Positions 44,302 to 60,869 of a stretch of 64,000 bases of DNA are shown here, piece after piece; position 1 is the stretch's first letter, and each line of letters opens with the position of its first letter. Both the position numbers and the translations under genes were made by a program. The notes under the pieces are model-generated. The model was not told the origin of the DNA and did no database searches. It was given only the letters and a program-made list of their open reading frames with translations. The stretch is from positions 124,001-188,000 of the forward strand of contig NZ_UYYD01000003.1 in assembly GCF_900625105.1 (NCBI RefSeq), in the 5' to 3' direction. The DNA is from Agathobaculum sp. Marseille-P7918 (GTDB lineage: Bacteria; Bacillota; Clostridia; Oscillospirales; Butyricicoccaceae).

Positions 44302-45534
44302 TCATGCTTCTATCAGCAGAACCGAAAGGTCGTTGACATTGGTGCCGGTGGCGCCGGTTTGAATCAGGCCGCCGCAGGCCGCCAGCGCGTGATACGCGTC
44401 GTTTTCCGCCAATACCTGCGGGATCGAAATGCCTTGTGCGCGCAGCGTATCGTAGGTGGTTCCGTCGGTATAGCCGCCGGCGGCGTCGGTCGGGCCGTCG
44501 GTGCCGTCCGAGCCAACCGAGAACACCGCCGCGCCGGCAAGGCCGCGCAGGCCTTCCGCGGCGGCGAGCGCAAGTTCTTGGTTGCGGCCGCCCTTGCCGT
44601 GGCCGGTCAGACGCACCACGGTTTCACCGCCCGCAAGGAAAGCGCGCTTTTCGCCGCGCCCCGCGTAATGCTGCGCGATGTTGGACAGGAATACGCCCGC
44701 GTCGCGCGCCGTGCAGCAGAGCGACTCGGTCAGAATCACGGGCCGGTAGCCAAGCGCGGCGCAGGCTTCGGCCGCATGGCGGCACAGGACGGATACGCCG
44801 CCGATCACGCGGTTGTGCACATGGGGCAGCGCCTGCGGCAGCGGCTGCGCAAGGCAGCTGCGCGCCTGCGCGGAAAGCGGCAGCCCGTACCGCTCGGCAA
44901 TCGGCAGCGCGGAGCCTGCGGCGTTGCGGTCCACCGCGCTCAGGCCCGAGGCGATGGCGTCCGGCCGGTCGCCCAGCACGTCGCTGAGCAGCAGCGCTTC
45001 CACATGGGCGGGCGCGCAGTGTTCTGCCAGCCGGCCGCCTTTGACCAGACTCAACCGCTTGCGCACGGCGTTCATTTCCGTGATATCCGCGCCCGAGGCG
45101 AGCAGCGCCTGTGTGATGTGCTGCATTTCATCCAGTCCGATCCGCGGCAGTTCGAGCAGCGCCGAGCCGCCGCCCGAGATCAGCAGCAGTACGGTGTCCT
45201 GCGTGGTCAGGCCTTGCGTCATCTCGAGCGCGCGCTGTGCTGCGCGCACCGAGTTTTCGTCCGGCACGGGATGGCCGGATTCCATGATCTCCAGATCGCC
45301 GAGCGGGCCTTCGCTGTGATGATATTTGGTGACAACCAGACCGGCAGCGATCCGGCTGCCGAGCACTTGCTGCACAGCCCGCGCCATGCGCCACGCGGCT
45401 TTGCCGATTGCAAGCAGGATGGTGCGTCCCGCGGGCGGCTGCCAGTCAGCCAGCGCATCCTGCACGGCGCGGTCGGGCAGGGACGCGCGGATGGCTGTCT
45501 GATAAATGGTTTCCGCATCGGTGCGCAGGCTCAT
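44302..45534 (-). CDS. Glycerate 2-kinase (DUF4147/MOFRL family)
   Basis: Phosphorylates D-glycerate to 2-phosphoglycerate, feeding lower glycolysis. It has 410 residues. Signatures are ILLAIGKAAWRMA, LLLISGGGSALLELP, LSDVLGDRPDAIASGLS, and the MOFRL part with FLAGGETVVRLTGHGKGGRNQELAL and GSDGTDGPTDAAGGY. It ends the minus-strand operon begun by the 3-hydroxyacid dehydrogenase and follows a hydroxypyruvate/glyoxylate-type reductase by 16 bases, so hydroxypyruvate or tartronate semialdehyde would flow to glycerate and then 2-phosphoglycerate. Placed under the sigma-54 promoter at 47521-47536. Confidence 0.93.
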   Translation of the reverse strand: MSLRTDAETIYQTAIRASLPDRAVQDALADWQPPAGRTILLAIGKAAWRMARAVQQVLGSRIAAGLVVTKYHHSEGPLGDLEIMESGHPVPDENSVRAAQRALEMTQGLTTQDTVLLLISGGGSALLELPRIGLDEMQHITQALLASGADITEMNAVRKRLSLVKGGRLAEHCAPAHVEALLLSDVLGDRPDAIASGLSAVDRNAAGSALPIAERYGLPLSAQARSCLAQPLPQALPHVHNRVIGGVSVLCRHAAEACAALGYRPVILTESLCCTARDAGVFLSNIAQHYAGRGEKRAFLAGGETVVRLTGHGKGGRNQELALAAAEGLRGLAGAAVFSVGSDGTDGPTDAAGGYTDGTTYDTLRAQGISIPQVLAENDAYHALAACGGLIQTGATGTNVNDLSVLLIEA

Positions 45535-45550
45535 CGCAGTTCCTCCTTTG

Positions 45551-46507
45551 TCAGTTTACAACGTGGATCGGTGTGCCCGCCAGCCACTGGGACAGGTTTT
45601 CCGCTGCCATGTCCATGATGCGTGCGCGGCTTTCTTTGGGCGCCCAGCTGATGTGTGGGGTAATCAGGCAGTTTTTCGCGTGCAGCAGTGGATTGTCGTC
45701 CCGAATCGGCTCGACGGAGACCACGTCCAGTCCGGCGGCGTATACCTTGCCGCTTTCAAGCGCGTCCGCCAGATCCTGTTCGTTGATGAGCGGACCGCGC
45801 GAGTTGTTGAGCAGGATGACGCCGTCCTTCATTTTGGCGATGCTTTCCTTGCAGATCATGCCGCGTGTTTCGGGAAACAGCGGGCAGTGCAGCGCGATCA
45901 CATCGCTCTGCGCGTACAGCTCGTCGAGCGAAACGTATTCGCCGATCGCGCGGCCTTCGTCGCAGGGGAAGCTGTCGTGCGCGAGGATGCGCATGCCCAT
46001 GGCTTTGGCGATGCGCGCGGTCTGACGGCCAATGCGGCCGAAGCCGATCACGCCCAGCGTTTTGCCGTCCAGCTCAATGAGCGGATAATCCCAGAAACAC
46101 CAGTCCGGATTGGAAGCCCAGCGCCCGTCGTGCACGGCCTGTGCGTGATGGGCGACATGGTGGCAGATCTCGAGCAGCATGGCGATCGCGTACTGCCCGA
46201 CCGCGGCCGTCCCGTAGGAGGGGACGTTGGTCACCGGGATGCCGCGCGCGCGAGCGGCCTGCACATCGACCACATCGTACCCGGTCGCCAGCACGCCGAT
46301 GTACCGGATCGAGGGACAGGCGTCGAGCGTCGCTTCGCGCAGCGGCGTTTTGTTTACGATGACGATTTCCGCGTCCCCGATGCGGGGGATGATCTGCTCG
46401 GCGGAGGTTCGGTCGTATACCGTCACTTCGCCCAGCGCTTCCAACGGCGCCCAGGACAGATCGCCCGGATTTTCGGTATAGCCGTCCAAAATGACGATTT
46501 TACGCAT
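45551..46507 (-). CDS. D-2-hydroxyacid dehydrogenase, glycerate dehydrogenase-like
   Basis: A 318-residue NAD-dependent enzyme. The opening MRKIVILDGYTENPGDLSW is characteristic of HprA-type glycerate dehydrogenases. The Rossmann motif is LGVIGFGRIGRQTARI, with catalytic Arg in LNNSRGPLIN, Glu in DVVSVEPI and His in TPHISWAPKESR. It interconverts hydroxypyruvate and D-glycerate. It lies between the 3-hydroxyacid dehydrogenase and glycerate kinase genes in one operon. Confidence 0.9.
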   Translation of the reverse strand: MRKIVILDGYTENPGDLSWAPLEALGEVTVYDRTSAEQIIPRIGDAEIVIVNKTPLREATLDACPSIRYIGVLATGYDVVDVQAARARGIPVTNVPSYGTAAVGQYAIAMLLEICHHVAHHAQAVHDGRWASNPDWCFWDYPLIELDGKTLGVIGFGRIGRQTARIAKAMGMRILAHDSFPCDEGRAIGEYVSLDELYAQSDVIALHCPLFPETRGMICKESIAKMKDGVILLNNSRGPLINEQDLADALESGKVYAAGLDVVSVEPIRDDNPLLHAKNCLITPHISWAPKESRARIMDMAAENLSQWLAGTPIHVVN

Positions 46508-46528
46508 GACATATCCTTCTTTCTTTTG

Positions 46529-47467
46529 TTACGCTTCCGGCATATCCCAATGGAAGCAGGCATAGTACGGCGCGGCCTTGCGGCGCAGATAGTCGGCGTC
46601 GTCCTTCTTCGACCAGTCGTACAAACCAAGGCCGACGCTGCGGCCGGTTTTGCCGGACGCCAGTCCGTCCAGCACGATCTGCTGGATGGCGCGGGTGCTG
46701 CACAGGTCGGGATACACGGTCTGCGCGATGTCGCGTTCCAGACTGAAGCCGACGTCGTCAAAGTATTCGAGCAAACCGATGGATGCATAGCGCATGCCGA
46801 CGGCATATTTGATAGCTTTATCCACATCCGCGACCGAAACCACGCCCTGTTCCACCAGATAGAGCGATTCGCGGAACAGCGCCTGCGCCAGACGGTTGAT
46901 GATGAAGCCGGGCACGCTTTTGTGCAGCGTGACGACCTCGCGATCAAGTTCCTCAAGGAAGGCGTGCAGCCGGTCGATCGTTTCAGGGGCGGTGTTCGGG
47001 CCGCCGACCAGCTCGACCAGCGGCAGCATGTGCGCGGGCTGGAACGGATGGGTGACGGCAAAACGCTCGGGATGCGCCATGTCGGCGGTCAGCAGTTCGA
47101 CCGAGATGGCCGATGTGGTGGACGCCATGAGCGTGTCCGGCGAGACAACGGCTTCCACCTGGCGGTAAATACCTTTTTTGACATCCAGGTTTTCAAATGC
47201 CGCTTCGAGCACGAACATGCAGCCCTTTAAAGCTGTGGTGTCGGTGGTCAGGGTGAAGCGGCGCAGGATCGCGGCGCGGTTTTTCTCCGTGGCTAGCCCC
47301 TGCTGCACCAGTTCGTCCAGATTGCCCTCCAGAATCCCGCGGCAGCGCTGAAGATCGTCCTCGTCCAGCCCGACAATCGTGACCTCGCAGCCGTGTCCCG
47401 CCATCAGCGTTGCCATGCCTGCGCCGACGCGTCCCGCGCCGACCACACCGGTTTTGTAGTTGAGCAT
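46529..47467 (-). CDS. 3-hydroxyacid dehydrogenase (lambda-crystallin/L-gulonate 3-dehydrogenase-like)
   Basis: Start ATG 47467, 9 bases after AAAGGAG. The 312 residues match the 3-hydroxyacyl-CoA dehydrogenase superfamily: TGVVGAGRVGAGMATLMA, ASTTSAISVELL, THPFQPAHMLPLVELVGG with the catalytic His, and VPGFIINRLAQALFRESLYLVEQG. The segment GMRYASIGLLEYFDDVG is typical of lambda-crystallin and carnitine or gulonate dehydrogenases, which oxidise free 3-hydroxy acids, not CoA esters. It is the first gene under the sigma-54 promoter on this strand, so it probably acts early on a hydroxy acid. Confidence 0.85.
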   Translation of the reverse strand: MLNYKTGVVGAGRVGAGMATLMAGHGCEVTIVGLDEDDLQRCRGILEGNLDELVQQGLATEKNRAAILRRFTLTTDTTALKGCMFVLEAAFENLDVKKGIYRQVEAVVSPDTLMASTTSAISVELLTADMAHPERFAVTHPFQPAHMLPLVELVGGPNTAPETIDRLHAFLEELDREVVTLHKSVPGFIINRLAQALFRESLYLVEQGVVSVADVDKAIKYAVGMRYASIGLLEYFDDVGFSLERDIAQTVYPDLCSTRAIQQIVLDGLASGKTGRSVGLGLYDWSKKDDADYLRRKAAPYYACFHWDMPEA

Positions 47468-47520
47468 ATGTATTTCTCCTTTCAAGCCGTGGATGCAATG
47501 TTGTTACACCCCTATACAAA

Positions 47521-47536
47521 AGCAAGATGCTTGCCA
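47521..47536 (-). promoter_or_regulatory. Sigma-54 promoter of the minus-strand hydroxyacid operon
   Basis: On the minus strand TGGCAAGCATCTTGCT, with -24 GG at 47534-47535, exactly ten bases, and -12 GC at 47522-47523. It matches the YTGGCAC-N5-TTGCW consensus except one base of the -24 box. The start codon is about 44 bases beyond the expected transcription start. Confidence 0.88.
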
Positions 47537-47639
47537 AGGAGAGGGGAGACGGCGCAAAAGGAGCGTTCCTTACAAAAATCAGCGGTTATTTTCTGCAAAT
47601 TGACGAAAAATATTGCGCAGGTGCGGGAGAATATCCAAA

Positions 47640-47681
47640 TGTTTCAAATTGGAGAAACAGTTTCGGTGCAACGGTTGAAAC
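47640..47681. promoter_or_regulatory. Enhancer-like sites for the sigma-54 activator, minus-strand operon
   Basis: TGTTTC-N8-GAAACA (47640-47645 with 47654-47659) is followed by GCAACGGTTGAAAC (47668-47681), whose complement GTTTCAACCGTTGC matches GTTTCATGCGTTGC at 49713-49726 in 12 of 14 positions. It lies about 130 bases upstream of the -24 box. Confidence 0.75.
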
Positions 47682-47711
47682 GGCGGTCGGAAATAGCCTC
47701 GTCAGGGCGGC

Positions 47712-49664
47712 TCATCTTTTGGGCGGCTGCTCTTCTTCCAGCTTTTTCAGCTGACGCCAAAGCGTAACGCGGCTCATGCCGAGCGCCTGCGCGGCGGCAG
47801 TTTTGTTGCCGCCCGCAGCTTCCAGCGCGGCCAGAATGCGGTCGAGATCGTTGTCCGGCAGAAGTTCGCCGGCAGGCGCAGGGGCAGCGGCCGGTGCCGC
47901 GACAAATGCAGCGTGGTTGGGCAAAAATGCAGGCAGGTCGTCCGCGTCCAGCAGGTCGCGGTCGCTGCAAAGCACGCTCAGCCGTTCGCAGAAGTTGCGC
48001 AGTTCGCGGATGTTGCCCTGCCAGGGCTGCTGCTCCAGACAGCGCGCGGCGGCGTCGGTCAGCCGAAGCGGGGTTCGGTTTTGGGCAATGCCGAATTCAT
48101 TCAAAAATGCATGGGCGAGCAGGGAAATGTCGTGGCCGCGTTGCCGCAGCGGCGGGATGGTCAGGTCGAGCACGTCCAGCCGGTAGTACAGGTCCTCGCG
48201 GAACAAGCCCTTGCGGACCTGCTCATACAGGTTGCGGTTGCTGGCGGCGATGACGCGCACGTCGATCGGAATGACTTTGTCGTGGCCGATTCGCATGATT
48301 TCGCGTTCCTGGATGACACGCAGCAGGCGGCTTTGCAGCGCCAGCGGCATTTCCGAGATCTCATCGAGGAAAATGGTGCCGTTGTGCGCCAGCTCGAACA
48401 GACCGGGCTTTCCTTCCTTGCTCGCGCCGGTGAAGGCGCCGCCGACATAGCCGAATAGCTCGCTTTCCAGCAGGTTTTCCGGGATCGCCGCGCAGTTGAC
48501 CGCGACAAAGGGCTGCTCGCGCCGCGCGCTGGCATTGTGGATGGACTGGCTGAACAGTTCCTTGCCCGTGCCGCTTTCGCCGAAGATGACGATGTTGGAG
48601 TTGGTCTGCGCATAGGCGTTGGCGCGGCGCACACATTCCCGGATGGCGGGGCTTTCCCCGATGATGGTATCAAAGGTATATTTGGCCGTATGCCCCTTGT
48701 GATAGATCTTGCCGCGCAGTTTGCCCTCGGCTTCCTGGATCTGGTTGGCGTTGAGAAAGGTGAGCACATAGCCGACCACTTCATCGCGCAGGTAAATGGT
48801 GATCTTTTTAAAGGAAAGGTGGGTCTGATGGTATTCAATGATCTCATCAATATAATTGTCCGGCCGGTTGATCAGCCGCACAATCTGCGGCGAGCGCAGC
48901 ACTTCGCGGATCGGCATGCCGAGGAACCAGTTGCCGGGCGCCAGACCGAGGATGGTTTGCGCCGAGCGGTTCATGGCGGTGATGTTGTTTTGCGGGTCGA
49001 GCGCGATCAGCCCTTCAAAGGCGTTGTCCACCATGGCGGAGCGCAGCAGGCTGTGTTCCTGCACTTCGCGGCTGCTGGCGCCCAGCTGCTTGGCGGCGTT
49101 GATCGCGTTCCAGATGGAGCTGCGCCCGGAGGTCAGCAACAGGTGCGCGGCGCCGAGGTTGTGCGCATAGGTGCAGCCGCGCATACCGCCCAGAATGATT
49201 TTTTTGCCGTCCTCCACCGCACGGGATACCACGCGGTAGATCTCTTCATCGGTGTTTTCCTCCAGATAATACGGCGTCAGGTTGACACCGATTTTCTGCG
49301 CCGTATCCTCGATGCCGAGGATCATGTTGACCGAACCGATGATACCGGCCGGTGTTTCTCCATAGCGTTCCTTTAATAGATACAGCACATTGAGCGTATC
49401 CTCGCCCGAGATGACCAGCTCCACCACGGGGACGGGGAAACCCTGGCGTTTCAGGTCGAAGGCGGTCGCGCCGCGTGCAATGATCACGTCGGCATTGAGG
49501 TCGAGCGAAAGGGCCTGCACGGTCGTCGGGGCGAGCATGGCGCAGAATTCATAGTGGCGGCCGCTGGTTTTGCTGGCGCGGTCGTTTTCGGTGCCTTCTG
49601 CAAACACCTGCTCTGCCAGTTCCTTGAGTTCTTCAAAAGGGGCAAGAAATACAATCCGGATCAC
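47712..49664 (-). CDS. Sigma-54-dependent activator with PrpR-type sensor domain
   Basis: A 650-residue enhancer-binding protein. A PrpR_N sensor domain occupies about residues 1-165 (MIRIVFLAPFEELKELAEQVF; ADVIIARGATAFDLKR), then a PAS domain about 205-310 (AFEGLIALDPQNNITAMNRSAQ). The AAA+ core has Walker A GESGTGKE near 361, the sigma-54 contact loop GAFTGA near 409, and Walker B GTIFLDEISEMP. A C-terminal Fis-type helix-turn-helix ends the protein (NKTAAAQALGMSRVTLWRQLKKL, read in parts). PrpR_N domains sense small metabolites such as 2-methylcitrate-like acids. It lies between two operons that both carry sigma-54 promoters. Confidence 0.96.
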   Translation of the reverse strand: MIRIVFLAPFEELKELAEQVFAEGTENDRASKTSGRHYEFCAMLAPTTVQALSLDLNADVIIARGATAFDLKRQGFPVPVVELVISGEDTLNVLYLLKERYGETPAGIIGSVNMILGIEDTAQKIGVNLTPYYLEENTDEEIYRVVSRAVEDGKKIILGGMRGCTYAHNLGAAHLLLTSGRSSIWNAINAAKQLGASSREVQEHSLLRSAMVDNAFEGLIALDPQNNITAMNRSAQTILGLAPGNWFLGMPIREVLRSPQIVRLINRPDNYIDEIIEYHQTHLSFKKITIYLRDEVVGYVLTFLNANQIQEAEGKLRGKIYHKGHTAKYTFDTIIGESPAIRECVRRANAYAQTNSNIVIFGESGTGKELFSQSIHNASARREQPFVAVNCAAIPENLLESELFGYVGGAFTGASKEGKPGLFELAHNGTIFLDEISEMPLALQSRLLRVIQEREIMRIGHDKVIPIDVRVIAASNRNLYEQVRKGLFREDLYYRLDVLDLTIPPLRQRGHDISLLAHAFLNEFGIAQNRTPLRLTDAAARCLEQQPWQGNIRELRNFCERLSVLCSDRDLLDADDLPAFLPNHAAFVAAPAAAPAPAGELLPDNDLDRILAALEAAGGNKTAAAQALGMSRVTLWRQLKKLEEEQPPKR

Positions 49665-49683
49665 AGAATTTCCTCCATTTTGC

Positions 49684-49740
49684 CTGTTGTTTCAACAGCG
49701 TTGCGTGTTTCTGTTTCATGCGTTGCAATGCATTTGCAAC
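49684..49740. promoter_or_regulatory. Enhancer-like sites for the sigma-54 activator, plus-strand operon
   Basis: Three repeats in 57 bases: CTGTTG-TTT-CAACAG (49684-49698), GTTTCAACAGCGTTGC (49689-49704), GTTTCATGCGTTGC (49713-49726), and GTTGCAA-TGCAT-TTGCAAC (49722-49740). They lie 110-165 bases before the -24 box and directly upstream of the activator gene itself, so they may also govern its own expression. Confidence 0.75.
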
Positions 49741-49847
49741 AACTATACCATACAAAGATTTCCTTTTCAAGTTTTTTCTGTTCATTTTGCACAAGGGGCG
49801 CGGTTGGTCTTTGTCGAGGAAGAAATTTTTTTGTCAAACCATGCAGT

Positions 49848-49863
49848 TGGCACGGTTCATGCT
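49848..49863 (+). promoter_or_regulatory. Sigma-54 promoter of the plus-strand operon
   Basis: TGGCACGGTTCATGCT, with a perfect TGGCAC, -24 GG at 49849-49850, exactly ten bases, and -12 GC at 49861-49862. The first gene starts 60 bases downstream at 49923. Confidence 0.9.
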
Positions 49864-50888: not shown

Positions 50889-50910
50889 CATTTTCCGAGA
50901 GGAGGACATG

Positions 50911-52080
50911 ATGTATCAGCTCAGGAATAAGAAATACGATATCGTCATTCAAAACGGCACTTTGATTGATACGATCGGCGGCTTTGAGAAAAAAGCTGAT
51001 ATTGCCATTGTTTCCGGTAAGATTGCCGCCATCGGAACGATTTCGGTAGACGATGCCAAGATGTGCGTCAATGCGGAAGGGTGCTATGTGTCCGCCGGAT
51101 TGATTGACTATCACTGTCATGTATTCCATGGCGGTGATTGGGCAAGCTGCTCCGCAGAAGCTTATGCACTGCCTAACGGGGTAACGACGCTGGTGGATGC
51201 CGGTTCGGCAGGCTGTGGGGGGTTCCCGTTATTCTGGAACGGGGTAGCCGCGCGCAGCCTAGTCAATATCAAGGCGTACATTTTTGTCGGCACAGGCGGC
51301 CAGGTCGGACTGGGATGCGTGGAGGATGAGAATCCGGCTCACATCAACCGGGACGGTATCGTGGAACTGTGTCAGAAGTATCCCAAGGAGATTGTCGGCA
51401 TCAAGATCAAGATCGACAAGGATCATCTGGCCCAGTACGGCATTGAGCCGCTGCGCGAAGCGATTCGGCTGGGGGAGCAAACCGCTCTGCGGGTTTCCGC
51501 ACACGCAACCGATCCTGTGGTTCCGGTGGATGAATTTATCGACCTGTTCCGTCCGGGTGATATTTACTGCCATATGTATCATGAAACCGGCGAAGGTATC
51601 TTGGATGAGAACGGCCGCGTGCGGGACAGCGTTCGGCGCGCACGGGAGCGTGGCGTATTGTTTGACGCAGCGCACGGTAAAACAAATAACTTTTCCTTGT
51701 CCTGTGCCAAGAAAGCCATAGATCAGGGATTTGCACCGGATATCATCAGTTCGGATTATACAAAGATTTCGATGTCCGCACGATATCCCTTTACCATGAT
51801 GCTGTCCGAGTATCTCAATCTCGGCATGTCCTTCCCAGAGGTGCTGCGCTGCTGCACCGAAAATCCCGCAAAACTGATTGCGGATCGCAACACTCCCTTC
51901 CTCGCGCCCGGCGAAGCGGCGGACTTGGCCGTACTGAAAATTACGGAACGTCCGGTCACTTTCTGGGATCACTATGGCAACCTGGTTCACGGCGATCGGC
52001 TGATCGAGAACAAAATGACTGTTTGCGGCGGTGAGATTTTGTTCGATCAGCTGGAAGATAAGTATCAGAAATTTGCTTAA
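50911..52080 (+). CDS. Amidohydrolase/deacetylase-family metallohydrolase
   Basis: Two adjacent ATGs (50908, 50911) follow AGAGGAGG; the second has the better spacing and gives 389 residues. It is a dihydroorotase-like TIM barrel: DIVIQNGTLIDTIGGFEKKADIAI, metal-binding DYHCHVF, likely carbamylated Lys in GIKIKIDKD, then SAHATD, CHMYHETGEGILDE and SSDYTKISM. Its family includes deacetylases of N-acetyl or O-acetyl hydroxy acids and D-aminoacylases. In this operon it may open a lactone or strip an acyl group from the imported substrate. Codon use here is somewhat less GC-rich than the flanking dehydrogenase. Confidence 0.85.
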   Translation: MYQLRNKKYDIVIQNGTLIDTIGGFEKKADIAIVSGKIAAIGTISVDDAKMCVNAEGCYVSAGLIDYHCHVFHGGDWASCSAEAYALPNGVTTLVDAGSAGCGGFPLFWNGVAARSLVNIKAYIFVGTGGQVGLGCVEDENPAHINRDGIVELCQKYPKEIVGIKIKIDKDHLAQYGIEPLREAIRLGEQTALRVSAHATDPVVPVDEFIDLFRPGDIYCHMYHETGEGILDENGRVRDSVRRARERGVLFDAAHGKTNNFSLSCAKKAIDQGFAPDIISSDYTKISMSARYPFTMMLSEYLNLGMSFPEVLRCCTENPAKLIADRNTPFLAPGEAADLAVLKITERPVTFWDHYGNLVHGDRLIENKMTVCGGEILFDQLEDKYQKFA

Positions 52081-52101
52081 CAGAAGAAAAGGAGAATGAA
52101 A

Positions 52102-53166
52102 ATGAAACTGAGAAAGATCTGTGCATTGTTCCTGGCTTCGAGCCTGCTGCTTTCGGTTGCAGCCTGCGCGCCGAATACGACGGTGGAAACCAAGGATGAC
52201 AGCAGCGACGCTTCGACCAACACCGAGGCAAAGGTGTTCACCATCGGTCATTCCAACCCGGCGGACCCGGATGACCAGTATCACTATTTCTGTGAGCAGC
52301 TCAACAAGAACCTGCAGGAGATCTGTGATGGTGCCATTCAGTTTGAGATTTTCTCGGACAGCCAGTTCGGTACGGAAACCGAGATGTTCCAGGCGGTCAG
52401 TGACGGCTCGCTGGATGCAGTCTGCATCTCCAACAACATTGTTTCCGGCAGTATTCCGCAGCTGCAGGTGCTTGACCTGCCGTACTTCTTTGATAGTGAG
52501 GACGAGTATCAGTTCCTGGTCGATAATGAGGACTTCCTGAAGGAAATCACTCCGATCTATGAAAGCACTTGGAACATGCATCAGTTCGCACCGGTGCTTG
52601 ATGCTTCCTGGCGTACGCTGTTTACCAAGGGCAAGGCTGTCAAGAGCCTGGATGATATGAAGGATCTCAAGGTCCGTGTTACCACCAACCGCGTGCACGA
52701 AGCAGCTTACAAGGCACTTGGCACCATTCCTTCGGTTATTGCTTGGAACGAATGCTATACGGCGTTCCAGCAGGGCGTTATTGACGGCCTGGACGTTGGC
52801 GTTCCGATTGCTGCCACCATGGGTTTCTATGAAGTTGCCGATTACTGCACGCGTGTCAACCCGTTCCCGATCCTGTGCTGGCCGATGATCAACATGGATG
52901 TCTGGAATTCTCTGACCGAAGAAGAGCAGGGCTGGCTGACGCAGGCCGGTTATGATGCGGCAATGGCGCAGCGCAGCCATCAGCGTGAGATGGAAGTTTC
53001 CTTTACGGAGATGGAAGAAGAGGCCGGTATCGAGTTCTTTGAGCCCGACCTGACCCCGTTCAAGGAAGCGACCGCCGGCGTTCGCGAGCAGTTCAAGCCT
53101 GAGATCGGCGAAGATTTCTACAACATGTGCGTTGATCTGGTAGACGGTTATCGCGCAAGCAAGTAA
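52102..53166 (+). CDS. TRAP transporter substrate-binding lipoprotein (DctP family), system 2
   Basis: The start is the second ATG, 52102, 7 bases after AAAAGGAG. The 354 residues have a lipoprotein signal (MKLRKICALFLASSLLLSV, lipobox VAAC) and DctP features: IGHSNPADPDDQYHYFCEQL, SQFGTETEMFQAVSDGSLDA, DLKVRVTTNRVHEAAYKALGTIP with the ligand-binding Arg, and WNECYTAFQQGVIDGLD. It captures the acid substrate for the sigma-54-controlled pathway. A GC-rich hairpin follows. Confidence 0.93.
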   Translation: MKLRKICALFLASSLLLSVAACAPNTTVETKDDSSDASTNTEAKVFTIGHSNPADPDDQYHYFCEQLNKNLQEICDGAIQFEIFSDSQFGTETEMFQAVSDGSLDAVCISNNIVSGSIPQLQVLDLPYFFDSEDEYQFLVDNEDFLKEITPIYESTWNMHQFAPVLDASWRTLFTKGKAVKSLDDMKDLKVRVTTNRVHEAAYKALGTIPSVIAWNECYTAFQQGVIDGLDVGVPIAATMGFYEVADYCTRVNPFPILCWPMINMDVWNSLTEEEQGWLTQAGYDAAMAQRSHQREMEVSFTEMEEEAGIEFFEPDLTPFKEATAGVREQFKPEIGEDFYNMCVDLVDGYRASK

Positions 53167-53175
53167 ATTGCATTG

Positions 53176-53209: not shown

Positions 53210-53236
53210 TCCCCCCTAATCCATGAAAGGAGATGA

Positions 53237-53806
53237 ATGTGTATGCAGTGGGCGAAACGCCTGGACCGCGGTGTGCAGAAAATCAATGCGGTGCTGATGG
53301 TTCTTGCCTGTGTATTTCTTGGCATCTTGGTTGTCACCTGTATCATGATGGTGCTGACCCGTTTTATTCCGAACTTTACCTTGACCGGCTTGGAAGAAAT
53401 CGCACGATATTCGTTCATTTTTCTGACCTTTTTTGCAGCGGGTGCGGGCACAGGAAGTAATGCGCATCCGGGTTTGACCCTTCTGCGCGATGCGCTGCCG
53501 AAAAAGGGCCGGTTTGTTCTGGATCTGATCGTTTATGCATTGATCGGATTGTTTGGCGTCATCTTTATCGTCTGCGGTTATCAGGCTGCTATGGGCGTCA
53601 GCAAACTGATTTCTACATCCTGGCGTATCCCGATGCCGATCATCTATTCTTCGGCGGTGCTGGGCGGCATTTTCATCACCGGCAACACGATCAACAACGT
53701 GATCCAGCTGATCGTATGCGGTGATGACAAGCGCAGTACGGAAATCGAAGAAGTACAGATTGTTGCCGCACAGCAAGCGGAAGCGGAAGGAGGAAAGAAT
53801 CAATGA
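53237..53806 (+). CDS. TRAP transporter small permease (DctQ family), system 2
   Basis: A 189-residue four-helix protein. Starts at 53237 or 53243 are both possible after AAAGGAG. DctQ signature LTGLEEIARYSFIFLTFFAAGAG, then NAHPGLTLLRDALPKKGR. Its acidic C-terminal tail (STEIEEVQIVAAQQAEAEGG) is unusual for the family in length. It overlaps the large permease by 4 bases. Confidence 0.92.
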   Translation: MCMQWAKRLDRGVQKINAVLMVLACVFLGILVVTCIMMVLTRFIPNFTLTGLEEIARYSFIFLTFFAAGAGTGSNAHPGLTLLRDALPKKGRFVLDLIVYALIGLFGVIFIVCGYQAAMGVSKLISTSWRIPMPIIYSSAVLGGIFITGNTINNVIQLIVCGDDKRSTEIEEVQIVAAQQAEAEGGKNQ

Positions 53807-55086
53807 CATCAGCTTTGATCCTGTTTGGTTTATTGTTCCTGCTGCTTGCGCTGTGCGTACCGGTGGGGTATGCAATTGGTCTGGCGTGCTGTGGCCTGGC
53901 GTTTTTCACCGGCACCTGTGACCTGTCTATGATTCCGGCCAAGATGATCACGGGTAATGACTCATTCATCTTCTTGGCGGTTCCGATGTTCACTTTTGCC
54001 GGTTATCTGATGGAGGCCGGCAATATCACCGAACGTCTGGTTGACTGGGTCAACAAGGTGTTCGGCCGTCTGCCCGGCAGCATGGGCGCGGTTGCTATCA
54101 TCACCTGCGCGATTTTCGCTGCGCTGACCGGTTCCGGTGCCGCTACGACGGCGGCAGTCGGTGCGATCATGTATCCGCTGATGATCAAGGCGCAGTACAG
54201 CAGGGAAGCATCCGCTGGTATCATCGCATCCGGCGCGGTGCTTGGCCCGGTCATTCCGCCCAGTATTCCGATGATCATTTACGGTTCCGCGATGGGTGTA
54301 TCCATTTCGGATATGTTCCTCGGCGGCGTCATCCCCGGTGTGCTGATGGCAGGCTCCTTCCTGCTGTACAACACCTGGTATGCGGTCAAGAACAAGCTGC
54401 CGCGCAGCACGACGAAATATTCTTTGATGGATATTTTAAAGGCAACTTGGCACAGCTTGGGCGTTTTGATGTTGCCGGTCATCATCCTCGGCGGTATTTA
54501 TTCTGGTCTGTTTACACCGACCGAGGCGGCGGCGGTTGCAATTGCATACACCACCGCGCTGATGATCGCCTATGGCCGCTTCACGCTCAAGCGTTATCTG
54601 GAAGTGATGAAGCGCACGGCGAGCACGACCGGCGTTATCATGCTGATCGTCGCGCTTTCCAACGCGTTCTCCTTCCTGCTGACCAAGGAACGCATCCCGT
54701 CCAAGCTGACGGCGGCAGTCGTTCCGATGTTGGGCAATGCATACATTTATCTGGCGGTTGTTATCATCATCTTCCTGATTGCGGGCGCATTGATGGATAC
54801 CGCGCCGGCACTGCTGATTCTGGCGCCGATCCTGGTTCCGATCGGTGTGGAGTTTGGTCTGAGCGAACTGCATCTGGGCGTATTGATGTGTATCGTCATG
54901 ATCTGCGGTCTGATCACGCCGCCGTTCGGCCTGAACCTGTTTACTATTTCGTCCACATCGGGCGTATCGTTTGAACAGGCAACCAAGGGCGCGGCGCCTA
55001 TGATTGGATGCTGTATCATCATCTGTATCCTTTGCGCATATATTCCGGGTCTGATCACCTTCCTGCCGTCCGTTGTCGGCGGATGA
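53803..55086 (+). CDS. TRAP transporter large permease (DctM family), system 2
   Basis: A 427-residue protein with about twelve helices. Signatures are SFIFLAVPMFTFAGYLMEAGNI, LTGSGAATTAAVGAIMYPLM, GPVIPPSIPMIIYGSAMGVSI, and VMICGLITPPFGLNLF. It is the transport subunit of the second TRAP system, translationally coupled to the small permease. The two TRAP systems are clearly different proteins, not a recent duplication. Confidence 0.95.
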   Translation: MTSALILFGLLFLLLALCVPVGYAIGLACCGLAFFTGTCDLSMIPAKMITGNDSFIFLAVPMFTFAGYLMEAGNITERLVDWVNKVFGRLPGSMGAVAIITCAIFAALTGSGAATTAAVGAIMYPLMIKAQYSREASAGIIASGAVLGPVIPPSIPMIIYGSAMGVSISDMFLGGVIPGVLMAGSFLLYNTWYAVKNKLPRSTTKYSLMDILKATWHSLGVLMLPVIILGGIYSGLFTPTEAAAVAIAYTTALMIAYGRFTLKRYLEVMKRTASTTGVIMLIVALSNAFSFLLTKERIPSKLTAAVVPMLGNAYIYLAVVIIIFLIAGALMDTAPALLILAPILVPIGVEFGLSELHLGVLMCIVMICGLITPPFGLNLFTISSTSGVSFEQATKGAAPMIGCCIIICILCAYIPGLITFLPSVVGG

Positions 55087-55155: not shown

Positions 55156-55959
55156 ATGTTTAACCTGCAAAAAATCACCGATAAGATCGCCGCGGGCAAG
55201 ATCCCGGTCGGCTCGCATGTTGGCTTTGACAGCCCGTTTCTGACCGAAGCGCTCGCAGGCTGCGGCTTTGATTTCATCTGGATCGACGCGGAGCATTCCG
55301 CGATCGACAAAAAGGATATCCAGAACCACCTGCTCGCGTGCCGCGCCGCGGGCGTGGCCGGCATCGTTCGCGTGCCGTGGAACGACCATGTGTTCATCAA
55401 GAGCGTGCTCGACATGGGCGCGGACGGCATCATTGTTCCGATGGTGCGCTCGCTCGAGGAGGCCAAGACGGCCGCGGCAGCAACCCATTATCCGCCGAAC
55501 GGCGTGCGTGGTATGGGCACCCGCCGCGCGGTCAACTATTCGATGTGGGACAAGGCGGAGTATACCGCCAATGAGGACAAGCACATCTGGACGATCGTGC
55601 AGATCGAGCATGTCGATGTCGTCAAGGACCTCGAAGCGATCGCGGCACTGCCCGGCATTTCCGGCTTCGTCATCGGCCCGAACGACTATGCGATGAGCAT
55701 GAACACGCAGGAGCACCGTTACACCGCGGCCTCTCCCGAAGCCAAGGCGGAGTTCGACAAGATCGGCGAGATCCTGCGCAAGACCGGCAAGCCCTTCGGC
55801 GTATCCGGTGCGTACAGCGAACAGTTCGTCAAGGACTGGCTGGGTCGCGGCGCCAACTGGCTGTGCATGAACTTCGATTTCAACTACATCGTCAACGGCG
55901 GTAAGGCCGTCCTCAAGGGCACGCATGAGACGCTTGACGCACTCGGTCAGGCATATTAA
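55156..55959 (+). CDS. HpcH/HpaI-family class II aldolase
   Basis: A 267-residue metal-dependent aldolase. Signatures are FDFIWIDAEHSAIDKKDI, GIVRVPWNDHVFIKSVLDMGADGIIVPMV, VRGMGTRRAVNY and the metal-ligand segments QIEHVDVVKDLEAI and GFVIGPNDYAMSM. Members cleave 2-keto-3-deoxy or 4-hydroxy-2-oxo acids to pyruvate and an aldehyde such as tartronate semialdehyde or glyceraldehyde. In this operon it is the likely step producing pyruvate, with the aldehyde passing to the reductase and glycerate kinase of the other operon. Confidence 0.9.
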   Translation: MFNLQKITDKIAAGKIPVGSHVGFDSPFLTEALAGCGFDFIWIDAEHSAIDKKDIQNHLLACRAAGVAGIVRVPWNDHVFIKSVLDMGADGIIVPMVRSLEEAKTAAAATHYPPNGVRGMGTRRAVNYSMWDKAEYTANEDKHIWTIVQIEHVDVVKDLEAIAALPGISGFVIGPNDYAMSMNTQEHRYTAASPEAKAEFDKIGEILRKTGKPFGVSGAYSEQFVKDWLGRGANWLCMNFDFNYIVNGGKAVLKGTHETLDALGQAY

Positions 55960-55980
55960 GCCGAGGAGGCATCGCTACAT

Positions 55981-56706
55981 ATGGAACTGCTGACAGCAGC
56001 GCAGCTGGAAGCGCTGCGTGAATTTGACACCCCGACCATTTGCAACGCCATCGAAGGTTTCGGTGTGCGTGCTAAAACCACCGGCTATACCGACCCCAGC
56101 CTGCGGCTGCGGGTCGGTATGGAGGACAAGCCGATGGTCGGCTACGCCCGGACCGGCATCATTTCCGCTCGGTTCCCGGCAAAGCCGGAGCACAATGAGG
56201 TGATGCGGGCGTACTACCGGCAATATGAGGGATTTGACCTGCCGCAGGTCGCGGTCATTCAGGATCTTGATCCCCAGCCGGTCGGCTCCTTCTGGGGCGA
56301 CGTGCAGGCGACCGTGCACCGTGCGCTCGGCTGCATCGGTACGGTCACTTCGGGCGGTGTGCGCGACGTGGCCGAGGTGGAAAAGGTCGGATTCTACCTG
56401 TTTTCCAAAGAAGTGCTGATCTCGCATGCGTACATCCACATGGTGGAAGCGGGCGGAACGGTCGAGGTGTGCGGCATGACCGTGCAGCCGGGCGACCTGA
56501 TCCACGCCGACTGCCATGGCGCGATCGTCATTCCGCATGAAGTCGCGCCGCGTCTGGCAGCGGCCTGCCGCCAGGCGGTGGACGCGGAGGAAGCGCTGCT
56601 GCTGCCCTGCCGTCAGGCGCTCGAAGAAGGCCACCGCGTCACCGCCGATCAGGTGATGGAATGGCGCGCGGAGATGACCCGCCGTCGTGCGGCAATCGGC
56701 AAGTGA
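55981..56706 (+). CDS. RraA-like aldolase/decarboxylase
   Basis: A 241-residue protein of the RraA family, which includes 4-hydroxy-4-methyl-2-oxoglutarate aldolase and oxaloacetate decarboxylase. Visible motifs are FDTPTICNAIEGFGVR, GSFWGDVQATVHRALGCIGTVTSGGVRD with the substrate Arg and metal Asp, and GDLIHADCHGAIVIP. Having both this and an HpcH/HpaI aldolase in one operon suggests two successive carbon-carbon cleavages or alternative substrates. Confidence 0.88.
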   Translation: MELLTAAQLEALREFDTPTICNAIEGFGVRAKTTGYTDPSLRLRVGMEDKPMVGYARTGIISARFPAKPEHNEVMRAYYRQYEGFDLPQVAVIQDLDPQPVGSFWGDVQATVHRALGCIGTVTSGGVRDVAEVEKVGFYLFSKEVLISHAYIHMVEAGGTVEVCGMTVQPGDLIHADCHGAIVIPHEVAPRLAAACRQAVDAEEALLLPCRQALEEGHRVTADQVMEWRAEMTRRRAAIGK

Positions 56707-56716
56707 GGAGGGTTTC

Positions 56717-57541
56717 ATGTTCGAAGAACAAAAGATACAGGAAATTGCCCGGCAGATCCGTCGGGATATCGTGACCATGACGCATGCAGCCGGCTCGGGA
56801 CATCCGGGCGGTTCGCTCTCTGCGGCCGATGCGCTCGCGGCGCTGTATTTCACCGATCAGTTCCGCTGTGATCCGCACAACCCGGACTGGGACGAGCGCG
56901 ACCGCTTCATCCTGTCCAAGGGGCATACTGCGCCGGTTATTTACAGCGTGCTGGCGCGGCGGGGCTTTTTTCCGCCCGAGGAGCTGCTGACGCTGCGCAA
57001 ATTGGGCTCGCGTCTGCAAGGCCATCCGAAAAAGGACGCTACGCCCGGTCTGGACTGCTCGTCCGGTTCGCTCGGACAGGGCCTGTCGGTTGCCAACGGC
57101 ATCGCGTTTGCGCTGCGCCGCCGCGGCTCGGACGCGCGTGTCTATTGTCTGATGGGCGACGGTGAGCTGCAGGAAGGGCAGGTCTGGGAGGCGGCGATGT
57201 TCGCGCCCCAGCACGGTCTGGACAATATGTGTGCGATCGTGGATTACAACAATGTGCAGCTGGACGGCAAGGTTGATGAGATCAAGGACGTTTATCCGCT
57301 GCGTGAAAAGTGGGAGGCGTTCCGCTGGAACGTGATCCAAGCGGACGGCCACAGCGTGCGCGAGATGTACGAGGCGTATCAGGCGGCACGCACCTGCAAG
57401 GGCAAGCCCACCGTCATTCTGGCGCGCTGCGTCAAGGGTAAGGGCGTTTCCTATATGGAAAACAGCGCCAAGTGGCACGGCACCGCCCCGAATGACGAAG
57501 AATACGCGCAGGCGATGGCGGAACTGGAGGTGCAGGCATGA
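56717..57541 (+). CDS. Transketolase, N-terminal (thiamine diphosphate-binding) subunit
   Basis: Start ATG 56717 after GAGGAGGG. The 274 residues are the first half of a transketolase: AAGSGHPGGSLSAADALAALYF, DRFILSKGHTAPVIYSVLARRG, GSLGQGLSVANGIA, and the cofactor motif GDGELQEGQVWEAAMFA with VDYNNVQLDG. It forms an active enzyme with the next gene product, which overlaps by 4 bases. It moves two-carbon ketol units and could use hydroxypyruvate or a ketose acid as donor. Confidence 0.95.
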   Translation: MFEEQKIQEIARQIRRDIVTMTHAAGSGHPGGSLSAADALAALYFTDQFRCDPHNPDWDERDRFILSKGHTAPVIYSVLARRGFFPPEELLTLRKLGSRLQGHPKKDATPGLDCSSGSLGQGLSVANGIAFALRRRGSDARVYCLMGDGELQEGQVWEAAMFAPQHGLDNMCAIVDYNNVQLDGKVDEIKDVYPLREKWEAFRWNVIQADGHSVREMYEAYQAARTCKGKPTVILARCVKGKGVSYMENSAKWHGTAPNDEEYAQAMAELEVQA

Positions 57542-58473
57542 AGGATACCCCAATGCGCGACGGCTATGGCAAGGCCATTCTTGAGCTGAGCCAAACGCAC
57601 GAGGACGTGATGGTGCTGGACGCGGACGTGGCCAAATCCACCCGTTCCGAGTGGGTCAAGCAGCAGAACCCGTCGCACTTTCTCGACTGCGGCATCTCCG
57701 AACAGGATATGGTCGGCACGGCGTCCGGCATGGCGCTGGCCGGGCTGACCCCATTCGTTTCGACCTACGGCGTGTTCCTTGCGGGACGCGCGTGGGATCA
57801 GGTGCGCAATACGGTTTGCTACAACCATCTGAACGTCAAGCTCGCGGGTGCGCACGGCGGCATTTCGGTCGGCCCGGACGGCGCGACGCATCAGGCGCTC
57901 GAGGATGTGGCGCTCATGCGCACGCTGCCCGGCATGACCGTGGTCGTGCCGTGTGACGCGATCGAGACCTATAAGGCGACGCTGGCGTTGTACGATACCC
58001 CCGGTCCGTGCTACATCCGGTTTGGCCGCGAAGCGGTGCCGGTCGTGACCGACGACGACACGCCCTTTGTGCTTGGAAGAAATAGACTGGTGCAGGACGG
58101 CACGGATGTGGTATACTTGGCAAACGGCTATCTGGTGCATCAGGCGATGCGCGCGGCGGAAAAGTTGGCAAAAGAAGGAATTTCTGCCCGTGTCGTGGAT
58201 GTACATACGGTCAAACCGCTCGATCGCGAAGACGTGATCCGGCATGCATCCGAGACGGGCGCCGTGGTCGTCTGCGAGGAGCACCAGATCAACGGCGGCC
58301 TGTGCGGCGCGGTGTGCGAGACGATTGCGGAAAGCGTATGCGTTCCGGTCGAGCGCATCGGCGTGCGGGACAGCTTCGGCGAGTCCGGCACACCGGAAGA
58401 GCTGATTGAAAAGTACGGTCTCGGCGTGGACGCCCTGTGTCAGGCGGCACGCAAGGCGATCGCGAGAAAATAA
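57538..58473 (+). CDS. Transketolase, C-terminal (pyrimidine-binding) subunit
   Basis: A 311-residue second half of transketolase, coupled to the first by a 4-base overlap. Motifs are MVLDADVAKSTRS, HFLDCGISEQDMVGTASGMAL with the catalytic Glu, GGISVGPDGATHQALEDVALMRTLPGM, and the C-terminal VVVCEEHQINGGLCGAVCE. Split transketolases in Clostridia often serve special pathways separate from the pentose phosphate enzyme, which is likely here given the operon. Confidence 0.95.
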   Translation: MKDTPMRDGYGKAILELSQTHEDVMVLDADVAKSTRSEWVKQQNPSHFLDCGISEQDMVGTASGMALAGLTPFVSTYGVFLAGRAWDQVRNTVCYNHLNVKLAGAHGGISVGPDGATHQALEDVALMRTLPGMTVVVPCDAIETYKATLALYDTPGPCYIRFGREAVPVVTDDDTPFVLGRNRLVQDGTDVVYLANGYLVHQAMRAAEKLAKEGISARVVDVHTVKPLDREDVIRHASETGAVVVCEEHQINGGLCGAVCETIAESVCVPVERIGVRDSFGESGTPEELIEKYGLGVDALCQAARKAIARK

Positions 58474-58501
58474 AAAGCAAGGCAAGCGGGGAGGGACGAG
58501 C

Positions 58502-59809
58502 ATGAAGATGGGTGCCAAGCAGGAGCTGACGCAAAAGCAGATGCTTTCGCAGGCACAGGTGCAGTCCCTCAATGTGCTTGCCATGACAGGAGACGAGCTG
58601 GAGCGGTTTGTTCAGCGCGAAGTAGAGGACAATCCGCTGCTCGAGCAGCCGGATCTGACGGCGGCGCCGGTTTCGCAGACGGGCGGCTATCGGGTTTCCC
58701 TATCCCGTTCCTCGGGCGAGGATGAAGCAGCGTATCGTGATATCCCCGCGCCCGAGCGGGTCAGCCTGCGCGACCATCTGCGCGGCCAGCTGGATGAGCG
58801 CGCCCTGAGTGCAGCGGAACGGCGCTGCATGTGTCTGCTGATCGATTCGTTGGACGAGCAGGGTTTTCTGGACGCAAGCGCGCAGGAAATTGCAAGCGTG
58901 CTGCAGATCGACCCCGTGATCGCCATACGGTGCGTTGAGCGCCTGCGTTCGCTCGATCCGCCGGGGGTTGGCGCGCATGATCTGGGCGACTGCCTGGCGC
59001 TGCAGCTGCAGCGTCAGGGCAAGAGCAACGCGGCGTTTGAACGGCTGCTGCAAGGGTATCTGGAGGATCTGGCGGCAGGCCATTTTCAAAAGATCACCAA
59101 ACAAACCGGCATCCCGCGGCTGGTGCAGCGGGCGTGCATGGAGGCGATCCGGGAACTGAACCCGCATCCGGCCGCAGCCTTTCGCGAGGAAACAGCGGGA
59201 TACGTCGTGCCCGATGTGATTTGCGAGCATGCCGATGGAGAATGGCAGATCCAGATCAATGACCGCTGGATGGGTTCGGTCGGCATTTCTGCGATGTATG
59301 ATCGCCTGCTGCGCACGGACGACAGTCCGGTGGTGCGGGAATATTATGCCGAACGGTTGGCAAAAGCGCGTTTTGTGCTCTCCTGCATCGAAAAACGGCG
59401 TGCTACGCTGCTGGATATCGCGCGGCGCGTGGTCACCTGTCAGGAGGAATACCTGCTGCACGGCGGGGCGCTCCGTCCGCTCACCTTTCGCCAATTGGCC
59501 GAGGAGATGGGCGTGCATGAGTCCACCATCAGCCGTGGCGTAAAAGACAAATATATACAAACGCCGCGCGCGACTATGCCGCTGCGCGAGCTGTTCACAA
59601 CTTCGCTGGACACCGGCGAGACGGTCAGTCAGGCGCAGGCGCTGCAAATGCTCAAAGAGCTGATCGCACGCGAAGACAAAGCCTGTCCGCTGAGCGATCA
59701 GGCGCTGTCCGACCGGCTGCAAAAGCAGGGTGTGGCGCTGGCGCGCCGCACGGTGGCAAAATACCGGGAATCCCTCGGCATTCCGGGTGCGGCACAGCGA
59801 AAACGATAA
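58502..59809 (+). CDS. rpoN: RNA polymerase sigma-54 factor
   Basis: Start ATG 58502 after GGGGAGGGA. The 435 residues have the glutamine-rich activator-response region I (KQELTQKQMLSQAQVQSLNVLAM, then EDNPLLEQPD), the core-binding region (about 100-280), the helix-turn-helix near STISRGVKDKYIQTP, and the RpoN box ARRTVAKYRE at 414-423. It directs polymerase to GG-N10-GC promoters and needs an activator such as the one at 47712-49664. It is embedded between the transketolase and dehydrogenase genes of the operon it should transcribe, which implies positive feedback. Confidence 0.97.
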   Translation: MKMGAKQELTQKQMLSQAQVQSLNVLAMTGDELERFVQREVEDNPLLEQPDLTAAPVSQTGGYRVSLSRSSGEDEAAYRDIPAPERVSLRDHLRGQLDERALSAAERRCMCLLIDSLDEQGFLDASAQEIASVLQIDPVIAIRCVERLRSLDPPGVGAHDLGDCLALQLQRQGKSNAAFERLLQGYLEDLAAGHFQKITKQTGIPRLVQRACMEAIRELNPHPAAAFREETAGYVVPDVICEHADGEWQIQINDRWMGSVGISAMYDRLLRTDDSPVVREYYAERLAKARFVLSCIEKRRATLLDIARRVVTCQEEYLLHGGALRPLTFRQLAEEMGVHESTISRGVKDKYIQTPRATMPLRELFTTSLDTGETVSQAQALQMLKELIAREDKACPLSDQALSDRLQKQGVALARRTVAKYRESLGIPGAAQRKR

Positions 59810-59828
59810 GAAAAAGGAGTATCTTCCC

Positions 59829-60869
59829 ATGAAATTCCCTGTGGAAACCATTCGCGCATTTGGCGAGGCGGTATCGGTCAAGGCCGGTATGACGCCCGAA
59901 AATGCGAAGATTTTTATTGATAATATGATCAACGCCGACCTGCGCAACGTGCGCTCGCACGGCATCACCAAGTTCCGCGGCTATCTGTCCCGCGTCGAGC
60001 ACGGCGTGTCCGACATCAAGGCAGAACCGACCATCGTCAAGACGGCGGCGTCCACCCTTGCGGTAGACGGCAACAACGGCATGGGCACTACGGTGGCATG
60101 GAAAGCGATGGAGGCCTGCATCGAGACGGCGCGCGAAAACGGCGTGGCGTTTGCGACCATCAAGAACGCGTCGCACCACGGCTTTGGCGGCTACTACGTC
60201 ATGCATGCGGCTGAGCAGGGCATGATCGCCTTTGAGGCCTGCAACTCGCCCAAGCTGGTCGCGCCCTTCGGCGGCGCAAAGCCGCTGCTGGGCACCAATC
60301 CGATGTCGATTGCCGTACCCGCGGGCAAGCGCCCGATGCTGGTGTGCGATATGGCGACCAGCGTGGTCGCCAAGGGCAAGATCGCGCTGGCGATGAAGGA
60401 AGGCCGTCCGATCCCGGATACCTGGGCGCTTGACGCCGAGGGCCGCAAGACGACCGATCCGGTTGCGGCGAACACGGGCGTTCTGCTGCCGTTCGGCGGC
60501 CCGAAGGGCTATGCGCTTGCGCTCATTATCGACGTGCTGTGCCACAGCTTGGCCGGCGCCAACGACAGCCAGCATATCCCGCGCGTGTTTGAAAACCTCG
60601 AAGAGCCGTCCAACATCGGCTATGTGATGTGCGTGATCGACATCCGCAAGTTCCTGCCGCTCGAGGACTTCGAGCAAAGCGTGGACGCGCTGTTCGAGAG
60701 CATCAAGGCTTGCCCGCCGGCGGAAGGCTCGAACGGTGTGCTCATTCCGGGCGAGATCGAATACGAAGCTACGCAGAAAAACCGTGCGGAAGGCATCGAG
60801 CTTTCCGAGCCGGTGCTTAAGGAATTCCACGAGCTGTCCGAGAAGTACGGCGTGGACTTCCCCTTCTGA
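59829..60869 (+). CDS. Malate/L-lactate-type dehydrogenase (Ldh2 family)
   Basis: Start ATG 59829, 9 bases after AAGGAG. The 346 residues are typical of the NAD(P)-dependent family that includes ureidoglycolate, L-sulfolactate and 2,3-diketogulonate dehydrogenases: DLRNVRSHGITKFRGYLSRV, TIKNASHHGFGGYYVMHAAEQG with the catalytic His, LLGTNPMSIAVPAG and PFGGPKGYALALIIDVL. It oxidises L-2-hydroxy acids. It ends the sigma-54 operon whose first gene is a D-specific dehydrogenase, so the pair could epimerise a 2-hydroxy acid through its 2-oxo form. Confidence 0.92.
   Translation: MKFPVETIRAFGEAVSVKAGMTPENAKIFIDNMINADLRNVRSHGITKFRGYLSRVEHGVSDIKAEPTIVKTAASTLAVDGNNGMGTTVAWKAMEACIETARENGVAFATIKNASHHGFGGYYVMHAAEQGMIAFEACNSPKLVAPFGGAKPLLGTNPMSIAVPAGKRPMLVCDMATSVVAKGKIALAMKEGRPIPDTWALDAEGRKTTDPVAANTGVLLPFGGPKGYALALIIDVLCHSLAGANDSQHIPRVFENLEEPSNIGYVMCVIDIRKFLPLEDFEQSVDALFESIKACPPAEGSNGVLIPGEIEYEATQKNRAEGIELSEPVLKEFHELSEKYGVDFPF

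Follow-up and report, generated by a model that had tools for sequence, protein, structure and literature searches.

A probable accessory catabolic island with its own sigma-54 factor and activator in Agathobaculum sp. Marseille-P7918

Sigma-54 is commonly viewed as one shared factor that serves many activators. A locus of 16.6 kb in Agathobaculum sp. Marseille-P7918 raises the question of whether a sigma-54 factor can belong to a single catabolic unit. The locus occupies positions 44302 to 60869 of the window, by which the whole analyzed stretch of 64,000 nucleotides on contig C23 is meant (genome of 2.83 Mb, 99% complete). It comprises a PrpR-type sigma-54 activator, two operons directed away from this activator, and rpoN, the gene for sigma-54, within the plus operon. 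The reading favored here, with good confidence, is that of a catabolic accessory island equipped with its own transcription apparatus, a self-amplifying circuit, and chemistry of the pyruvate/glycerate type. It is based on gene content, domains, promoters, the single sigma factor and activator, conservation, and the presence or absence of the island in relatives; from these we infer ligand sensing, feedback, basal priming, and the substrate. The regulatory features are as follows.

47712..49664, minus strand: PrpR-type sigma-54 activator (enhancer-binding protein), from Pfam domains and GAFTGA; sole high-scoring PF00158 match in the genome
58502..59809, plus strand: rpoN, sigma-54, from domain matches; sole copy in the genome
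47521..47537, minus strand, first base 47537: -24/-12 promoter of the minus operon, TTGGCAAGCATCTTGCT, from weighted and strict scans
49847..49863, plus strand, first base 49847: -24/-12 promoter of the plus operon, TTGGCACGGTTCATGCT, from weighted and strict scans
47639..47682, no strand assigned: putative activator binding region of the minus promoter, suggested by GTTTC...GAAAC repeats
49689..49742, no strand assigned: putative activator binding region of the plus promoter, suggested by GTTTC/GTTGC repeats
49742..49770, minus strand: sigma-A-like promoter of the activator gene, TTGAAA-17-TATAGT, from its motif, with similar bases in relatives by eye

The activator shows Pfam matches to PrpR_N (87 bits), Sigma54_activat (235 bits), and a Fis-type helix-turn-helix (HTH) domain (46 bits), with a PAS match of 21.7 bits slightly under the Pfam cut-off of 22.6. 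The preliminary description of this DNA had named a PrpR-type activator with GAFTGA, and the AAA+ sigma-54 domain, the PrpR_N sensor, the HTH, and the GAFTGA motif are indeed all present. Identity with PrpR or PrdR itself is ruled out, as neither equivalog cut-off is reached. The rpoN product matches the AID (PF00309), the core-binding domain (PF04963), and the DNA-binding domain (PF04552), scores 371 bits against TIGR02395 (cut-off of 277), and contains the RpoN box ARRTVAKYR. A second rpoN elsewhere was regarded in the preliminary description as a finding that would speak against it; in the whole genome, PF04552 has a single match, the gene described here. PF00158 has five matches, of which the activator of the locus scores 239 bits and the other four, taken to be other AAA+ proteins, score 22 to 28 bits.

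A weighted -24/-12 scan of the window from 40 to 63 kb finds just the two promoters above its threshold. This agrees with the two GG-N10-GC promoters pointing away from the activator that had been proposed before, with coordinates ∼1 base off. A stricter weighted threshold applied to the 64-kb window yields three sites, the third of which (39726) lies within a coding frame, and 30 Markov-1 simulations of 64 kb at this threshold give a mean of 0.87 sites and a maximum of 3. The number of sites is weak evidence because the simulations reach three sites too. The case for the promoters rests on position, orientation, and conservation, since both are intergenic, face away from the activator, and are kept in place. 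The plus promoter is above the threshold at the same place in L025, L027, and L029, the loci of the related genomes G001, G004, and G005; the minus promoter is above it in L025, with a weaker match in L027 and L029. The strict pattern YTGGCANGNNNNWTGCW has five matches in the whole genome (2.8 Mb), with two for the reversed control; the two promoters of the locus lie outside coding frames and the other three matches lie inside. A self-contained sigma-54 regulon, with one sigma factor, one activator, and both strong intergenic promoters at one locus, is supported by these sequence data.

The plus genes are co-directional from the promoter at 49847 to position 60869, and rpoN is placed between tktB and ldh2, starting 28 bp past tktB, in line with the earlier assignment of rpoN to the plus operon. 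The layout is that of an autoactivated rpoN operon, in which a -24/-12 promoter and an activator precede the operon that contains rpoN, and it is conserved in relatives. As rpoN lies in the sigma-54-driven plus operon, sigma-54 transcription should raise sigma-54, and from this gene arrangement we infer positive feedback. In the proposed mechanism, the activator, probably expressed from a sigma-A promoter, would sense a pathway metabolite. Bound ∼100 to 160 bp upstream, where GTTTC/GTTGC repeats precede both promoters in the window, it would drive sigma-54 RNA polymerase at the two opposed-facing -24/-12 promoters. Besides two dehydrogenases and sigma-54, the plus operon would supply uptake, hydrolysis, and the aldolase and transketolase reactions, and the minus operon would supply two dehydrogenases and the glycerate 2-kinase. 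Basal sigma-54 would start the loop, and its level would then rise as the plus operon is transcribed. The sigma-A-like promoter of the activator gene, a type of match no commoner in the region than in shuffles, overlaps one repeat cluster, which might permit autorepression of the activator.

Judged by rpoN and its neighbors rather than enzyme by enzyme, the module occurs in 5 of 25 genus genomes, namely, the window's genome (G000), G001, G004, G005, and G007, with a relic in G017. A comparison of gene order in related genomes, as proposed in the preliminary description, finds serA-hydrolase-dctPQM-hpaI-rraA-tktA-tktB-rpoN-ldh2 in all five. The loci of G004 and G005 are near-identical, which lowers the number of independent cases, and the G005 module carries inserts, a second tripartite ATP-independent periplasmic (TRAP) transporter and a lactonase-like gene. 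In G007, the contig begins just before serA, leaving the activator and the minus operon unseen, and the one activator found is on another contig. The minus operon is variable; its 3HCDH gene adjoins the activator in G001, G004, and G005, and in G005 a gene resembling 2-hydroxy-3-oxopropionate reductase (tartronate-semialdehyde reductase, GarR-like) lies next to the 3HCDH gene in place of the window's other two minus-operon genes. Within the module, rpoN is the least conserved gene in L007, L025, and L027, with 63 to 79% amino acid identity compared to 75 to 100% for the others. The HpaI aldolase (55156-55959) is 98 to 100% identical in three of five relatives and 90% identical in the other two, with 63 to 81% for RpoN of the same operon. 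"Candidatus Agathobaculum merdavium," the only relative from the named-genome scan, has an RpoN that is 79% identical.

Outside the genus, a search for RraA homologues in class and phylum genomes did not find the enzyme module. In each sample, four genomes have a homologue at an E value of ≤1e-30 (of 391 for the class and of 398 for the phylum), a figure that includes the genome of the window. Among the six RraA neighborhoods examined, L087 and L088 have homologues of HpaI (27%) and SerA (33 to 42% identity) nearby, and L081 and L083 have a homologue of the D-2-hydroxyacid dehydrogenase (32% and 63% identity); none of the six shows an rpoN or activator match.

In the window, the module sits between the NIR_SIR gene nir (42550-44205) and spoIIE (61029-63419). 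In G006, 220 bp separate the match to nir from that to spoIIE. In G020, a region starts 35 bp past the aligned nir block that in G017 follows a truncated rpoN, beginning there 8.6 kb from nir; G021 aligns with G020 over nir and the post-nir region as a single block, and part of the same region follows the module in G007. The nir-spoIIE stretch thus varies within the genus; it measures 220 bp (G006) or ∼26 kb without the module (G020 and G021), holds the relic and other genes in G017, and holds just the module in the window. The module is considered an accessory island because G006, G020, and G021 have the site without the block. It also appears not to be bound to one site, since spoIIE is ∼74 kb from the module in G001, 1.5 Mb away in G005, and on another contig in G004, and a nir match is lacking in all three. 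The rpoN of G017 (L043:15173-16162) matches only to residue 307 of 435, its end coinciding with the module boundary. PF04552 has no match in this genome, which keeps the activator (55% identity) and a site resembling -24/-12. Unless the draft assembly misleads, this gene would be a relic that has lost its DNA-binding domain.

What the island degrades is addressed by its enzymes, which are encoded as follows.

44302..45534, minus strand: glycerate 2-kinase family (DUF4147/MOFRL), from family matches; 88% identical neighbor in L043
45551..46507, minus strand: D-2-hydroxyacid dehydrogenase, from family matches
46529..47485, minus strand (probable ATG start at 47467): 3HCDH-type dehydrogenase, conserved in L025, L027, and L029
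49923..50888, plus strand: SerA-like D-2-hydroxyacid dehydrogenase, from family matches; present in relatives' modules
50908..52080, plus strand: amidohydrolase/deacetylase-family metallohydrolase, from family matches
52096..53166, plus strand: TRAP substrate-binding protein DctP, from family matches and nearest solved relatives
53237..53806, plus strand: TRAP small permease DctQ, from family matches
53803..55086, plus strand: TRAP large permease DctM, from family matches
55156..55959, plus strand: HpcH/HpaI aldolase, from family matches
55981..56706, plus strand: RraA-like aldolase/decarboxylase, from family matches
56687..57541, plus strand: transketolase, N-terminal subunit (tktA), from family matches
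57538..58473, plus strand: transketolase, C-terminal subunit (tktB), from family matches
59830..60869, plus strand: Ldh_2-family dehydrogenase of the malate/L-lactate/sulfolactate type (ldh2), from family matches

The two TRAP permeases counted in the preliminary description are the small and large subunits of a single transporter; apart from this wording and the promoter coordinates, its account of the locus is accurate. That account could not name a standard pathway for the enzyme set, and none is named here either. The nearest solved relatives of DctP are TRAP binding proteins, several of which bind uronates or aldonates, and this offers a lead to the substrate. The HpaI protein is nearest to the 4-hydroxy-2-oxoheptanedioate and 2-dehydro-3-deoxyglucarate aldolases. 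Perhaps the substrate is a sugar acid or hydroxy acid that ends in pyruvate and D-glycerate. The acid, which might enter as an ester or lactone, as the metallohydrolase and the lactonase-like insert of G005 suggest, would be oxidized, and the HpaI aldolase would cleave the product to pyruvate and a C3 unit. The latter would leave as D-glycerate and 2-phosphoglycerate, an exit suggested by the glycerate kinase of the locus and, in G005, by the reductase-like gene. This pyruvate-plus-glycerate outline is tentative, with the chances slightly against it. Another possibility is that a sulfonate, for example, sulfolactate, is degraded and that the sulfite-reductase-like gene at 42550-44205 provides the final step, for this gene adjoins the locus and the best NCBIfam model of the Ldh_2 protein is L-sulfolactate dehydrogenase. 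The match of 272 bits is far under the cut-off of 500, no sulfolyase family match occurs among the proteins of the two operons, and 14 of 25 genus genomes carry the reductase gene, among them some that lack the island, while it is not found in three that have the island (G001, G004, and G005). On these grounds, the sulfonate pathway is hardly credible and was rejected.

The pairing of rpoN with an activator extends beyond the module. In the family, PF04552 matches occur in 24 of 87 genomes (E value of ≤1e-3, partial matches included) and activators occur in 28 of 87 (E value of ≤1e-25). After six partial rows were dropped, an activator is found no more than 20 kb from 17 of the 22 full-size rpoN genes, compared to ∼0.64 expected by uniform placement. 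The five exceptions (G007, G033, G076, G081, and G082) have no activator on the same contig, and all are draft assemblies. For the rest of the order sample, with one partial row dropped, 9 of 23 rpoN genes are equally close (∼1.0 expected). Of the remaining 14, nine are from genomes with three to eight activators, the ordinary global pattern, and five are from genomes that have a single activator or lack one. G001, G004, and G005 and, outside the family, G415 have a pair of rpoN genes, and both genes of the pair have an activator within 20 kb.

In a tree of 38 RpoN rows, from which G005 was left out, the four module RpoN proteins form one group (100/100) and nine of another type form a second (100/100), eight of which adjoin a GAYTGA activator. 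The two copies of G004 divide between these groups, and the second copy of G001 is placed outside but near the module group on a long branch. The GAYTGA-type pair recurs in the family (L028, L034, L035, L036, L038, L039, L040, and L071); the scan found no strong -24/-12 site tying these pairs to a known regulon. In L035, a pyruvate:ferredoxin oxidoreductase gene is near such a pair. In two other cassettes of the family, L037 (G026) and L041 (G054), rpoN has TRAP, aldolase, dehydrogenase, or transketolase genes for neighbors, and the -24/-12 sites lie downstream of the sigma factor gene. G011, G017, G057, G072, G073, G075, and G079 have an activator domain without a PF04552 match at the above-mentioned thresholds; as these are drafts, the absence is unsure. 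An apparent fusion of activator and RpoN box in G050 (L042) was rejected because its reading frame spans an assembly gap, seen as a run of N. No claim is made that the rpoN copies of one genome are insulated at the promoter level, the RpoN boxes and sites being of the same class. In the family and parts of the order, sigma-54 may be a plug-in part and no global regulator, with dedicated rpoN-activator pairs that come and go with single accessory loci like ECF sigma factors, two cassettes able to coexist, and, here, a self-controlled, substrate-triggered switch; the arguments for and against this generalization are evenly poised.

Several observations weigh against the island as a self-governed unit with a glycerate exit. 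The putative activator sites are not perfect repeats; 6-base arms without mismatches occur in three of eight aligned intergenic regions, the rest being judged by eye, with the minus site having such arms in the window and L025 and none in L027 and L029 and the plus site having them in the window alone. Among the matches listed, none of the ten enzymes reaches an NCBIfam equivalog cut-off. The D-2-hydroxyacid dehydrogenase and the glycerate kinase of the window have no orthologues beside the module in L025, L027, and L029, so the glycerate exit is not constant. Basal rpoN expression is required because the loop could not otherwise start, and a scan that weaker promoters would escape found no sigma-70-like site near the rpoN start. 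Finally, the looser pattern TGGCAN6TTGC has 44 matches in the whole genome compared to 17 for the reversed control, which makes weaker remote sigma-54 targets possible.

Two alternatives bear on these points. The first regards rpoN as a passenger with a steady level from an unrecognized internal promoter, to which the operon promoter adds little, giving no meaningful feedback; the operon would retain the gene since the island, at any landing site, requires a sigma factor. The L037 and L041 cassettes, with rpoN upstream of the -24/-12 sites and not behind them, fit this idea, as does the weak constitutive promoter that provides basal rpoN expression in R. capsulatus (PMC6925177). The short distance behind tktB, the negative sigma-70 scan, and the order tktB-rpoN-ldh2 maintained in G001, G004, G005, and G007 argue for the opposite and make a passenger unlikely. 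The second alternative, in which sigma-54 is a remnant global regulator embedded here by chance and still serving genes elsewhere, would account for the excess of loose matches. It is very improbable in view of the single activator in the genome, the location of the three other strict matches within coding frames, the related genomes that have the site without the block, and the separate grouping of the module RpoN in the tree. An accessory island with its own sigma-54 circuit remains the preferred reading.

If the circuit is true, the presence of a nutrient would probably let the island amplify its own master switch. The layout of one sigma factor, one activator, and two promoters would provide a minimal natural circuit for probing positive feedback by a sigma factor. 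A genome whose only sigma-54 lies in an optional catabolic island, together with the relatives with two copies, allows the study of sigma factor gain, separation, and loss. The conserved enzymes of the island point to a yet-unnamed acid pathway of gut bacteria.

Among known systems, the GarL/GarR/GarK-type sugar-diacid pathway is the reference for a route with an aldolase and a glycerate 2-kinase. The likeness is at the family level, with an HpaI/GarL-family aldolase and a glycerate 2-kinase here and a GarR-like gene in G005. In contrast to this pathway, the locus has extra dehydrogenases, RraA, a split transketolase, and a metallohydrolase, and no sugar-diacid dehydratase family was found among the proteins of the two operons, which the search covered. 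For the regulatory arrangement, the precedent is the nifU2-rpoN superoperon of R. capsulatus, for which PMC6925177 cites Cullen et al. (1994). This is an autoactivated rpoN operon for nitrogen fixation, in which rpoN is driven by sigma-54 and an activator, NifA, and few activators (NifA and AnfA) use the sigma factor (PMC6925177). That system serves nitrogen fixation in an alphaproteobacterium and has an experimentally known weak constitutive rpoN promoter (PMC6925177), whereas the locus described here, known from sequence, is a catabolic operon in Clostridia with a single activator near rpoN and is present or absent as an island.

Sigma-54 transcription requires an activator (PMC6615313). The same survey describes clostridial sigma-54 regulons in which one-component activators, including PrpR_N activators, control neighboring metabolic operons, with 1 to 35 activators per genome, a patchy sigL, and Clostridiales with a single activator already reported (PMC6615313). 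It lists a single sigL in each of 57 genomes (PMC6615313), in contrast to the three relatives with two rpoN genes found here, and in the window's family, rpoN itself is activator linked in most cases (17/22). R. sphaeroides and other multi-rpoN bacteria likewise have several dedicated sigma-54 copies with separate roles, and ∼5% of organisms in one survey have more than one rpoN copy (PMC12316311 and PMC3162934; the frequency is from PMC12316311). In the literature reached, which included few subscription papers, neither a catabolic island that carries a single sigma-54 and activator of its own nor repeated rpoN-activator cassettes in one genus are described. The preliminary description proposed a candidate for an undescribed system. 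This would hold for the arrangement, a one-sigma, one-activator accessory catabolic island, and not for the principle, which has precedents in nifU2-rpoN (PMC6925177) and the single-activator Clostridiales (PMC6615313). Compared to multi-rpoN bacteria, the copies here appear to belong to distinct rpoN-activator cassettes of gut Clostridia, and the accessory-island behavior and the repeated rpoN-activator pairing in relatives would be the features that are new beyond the preliminary description.

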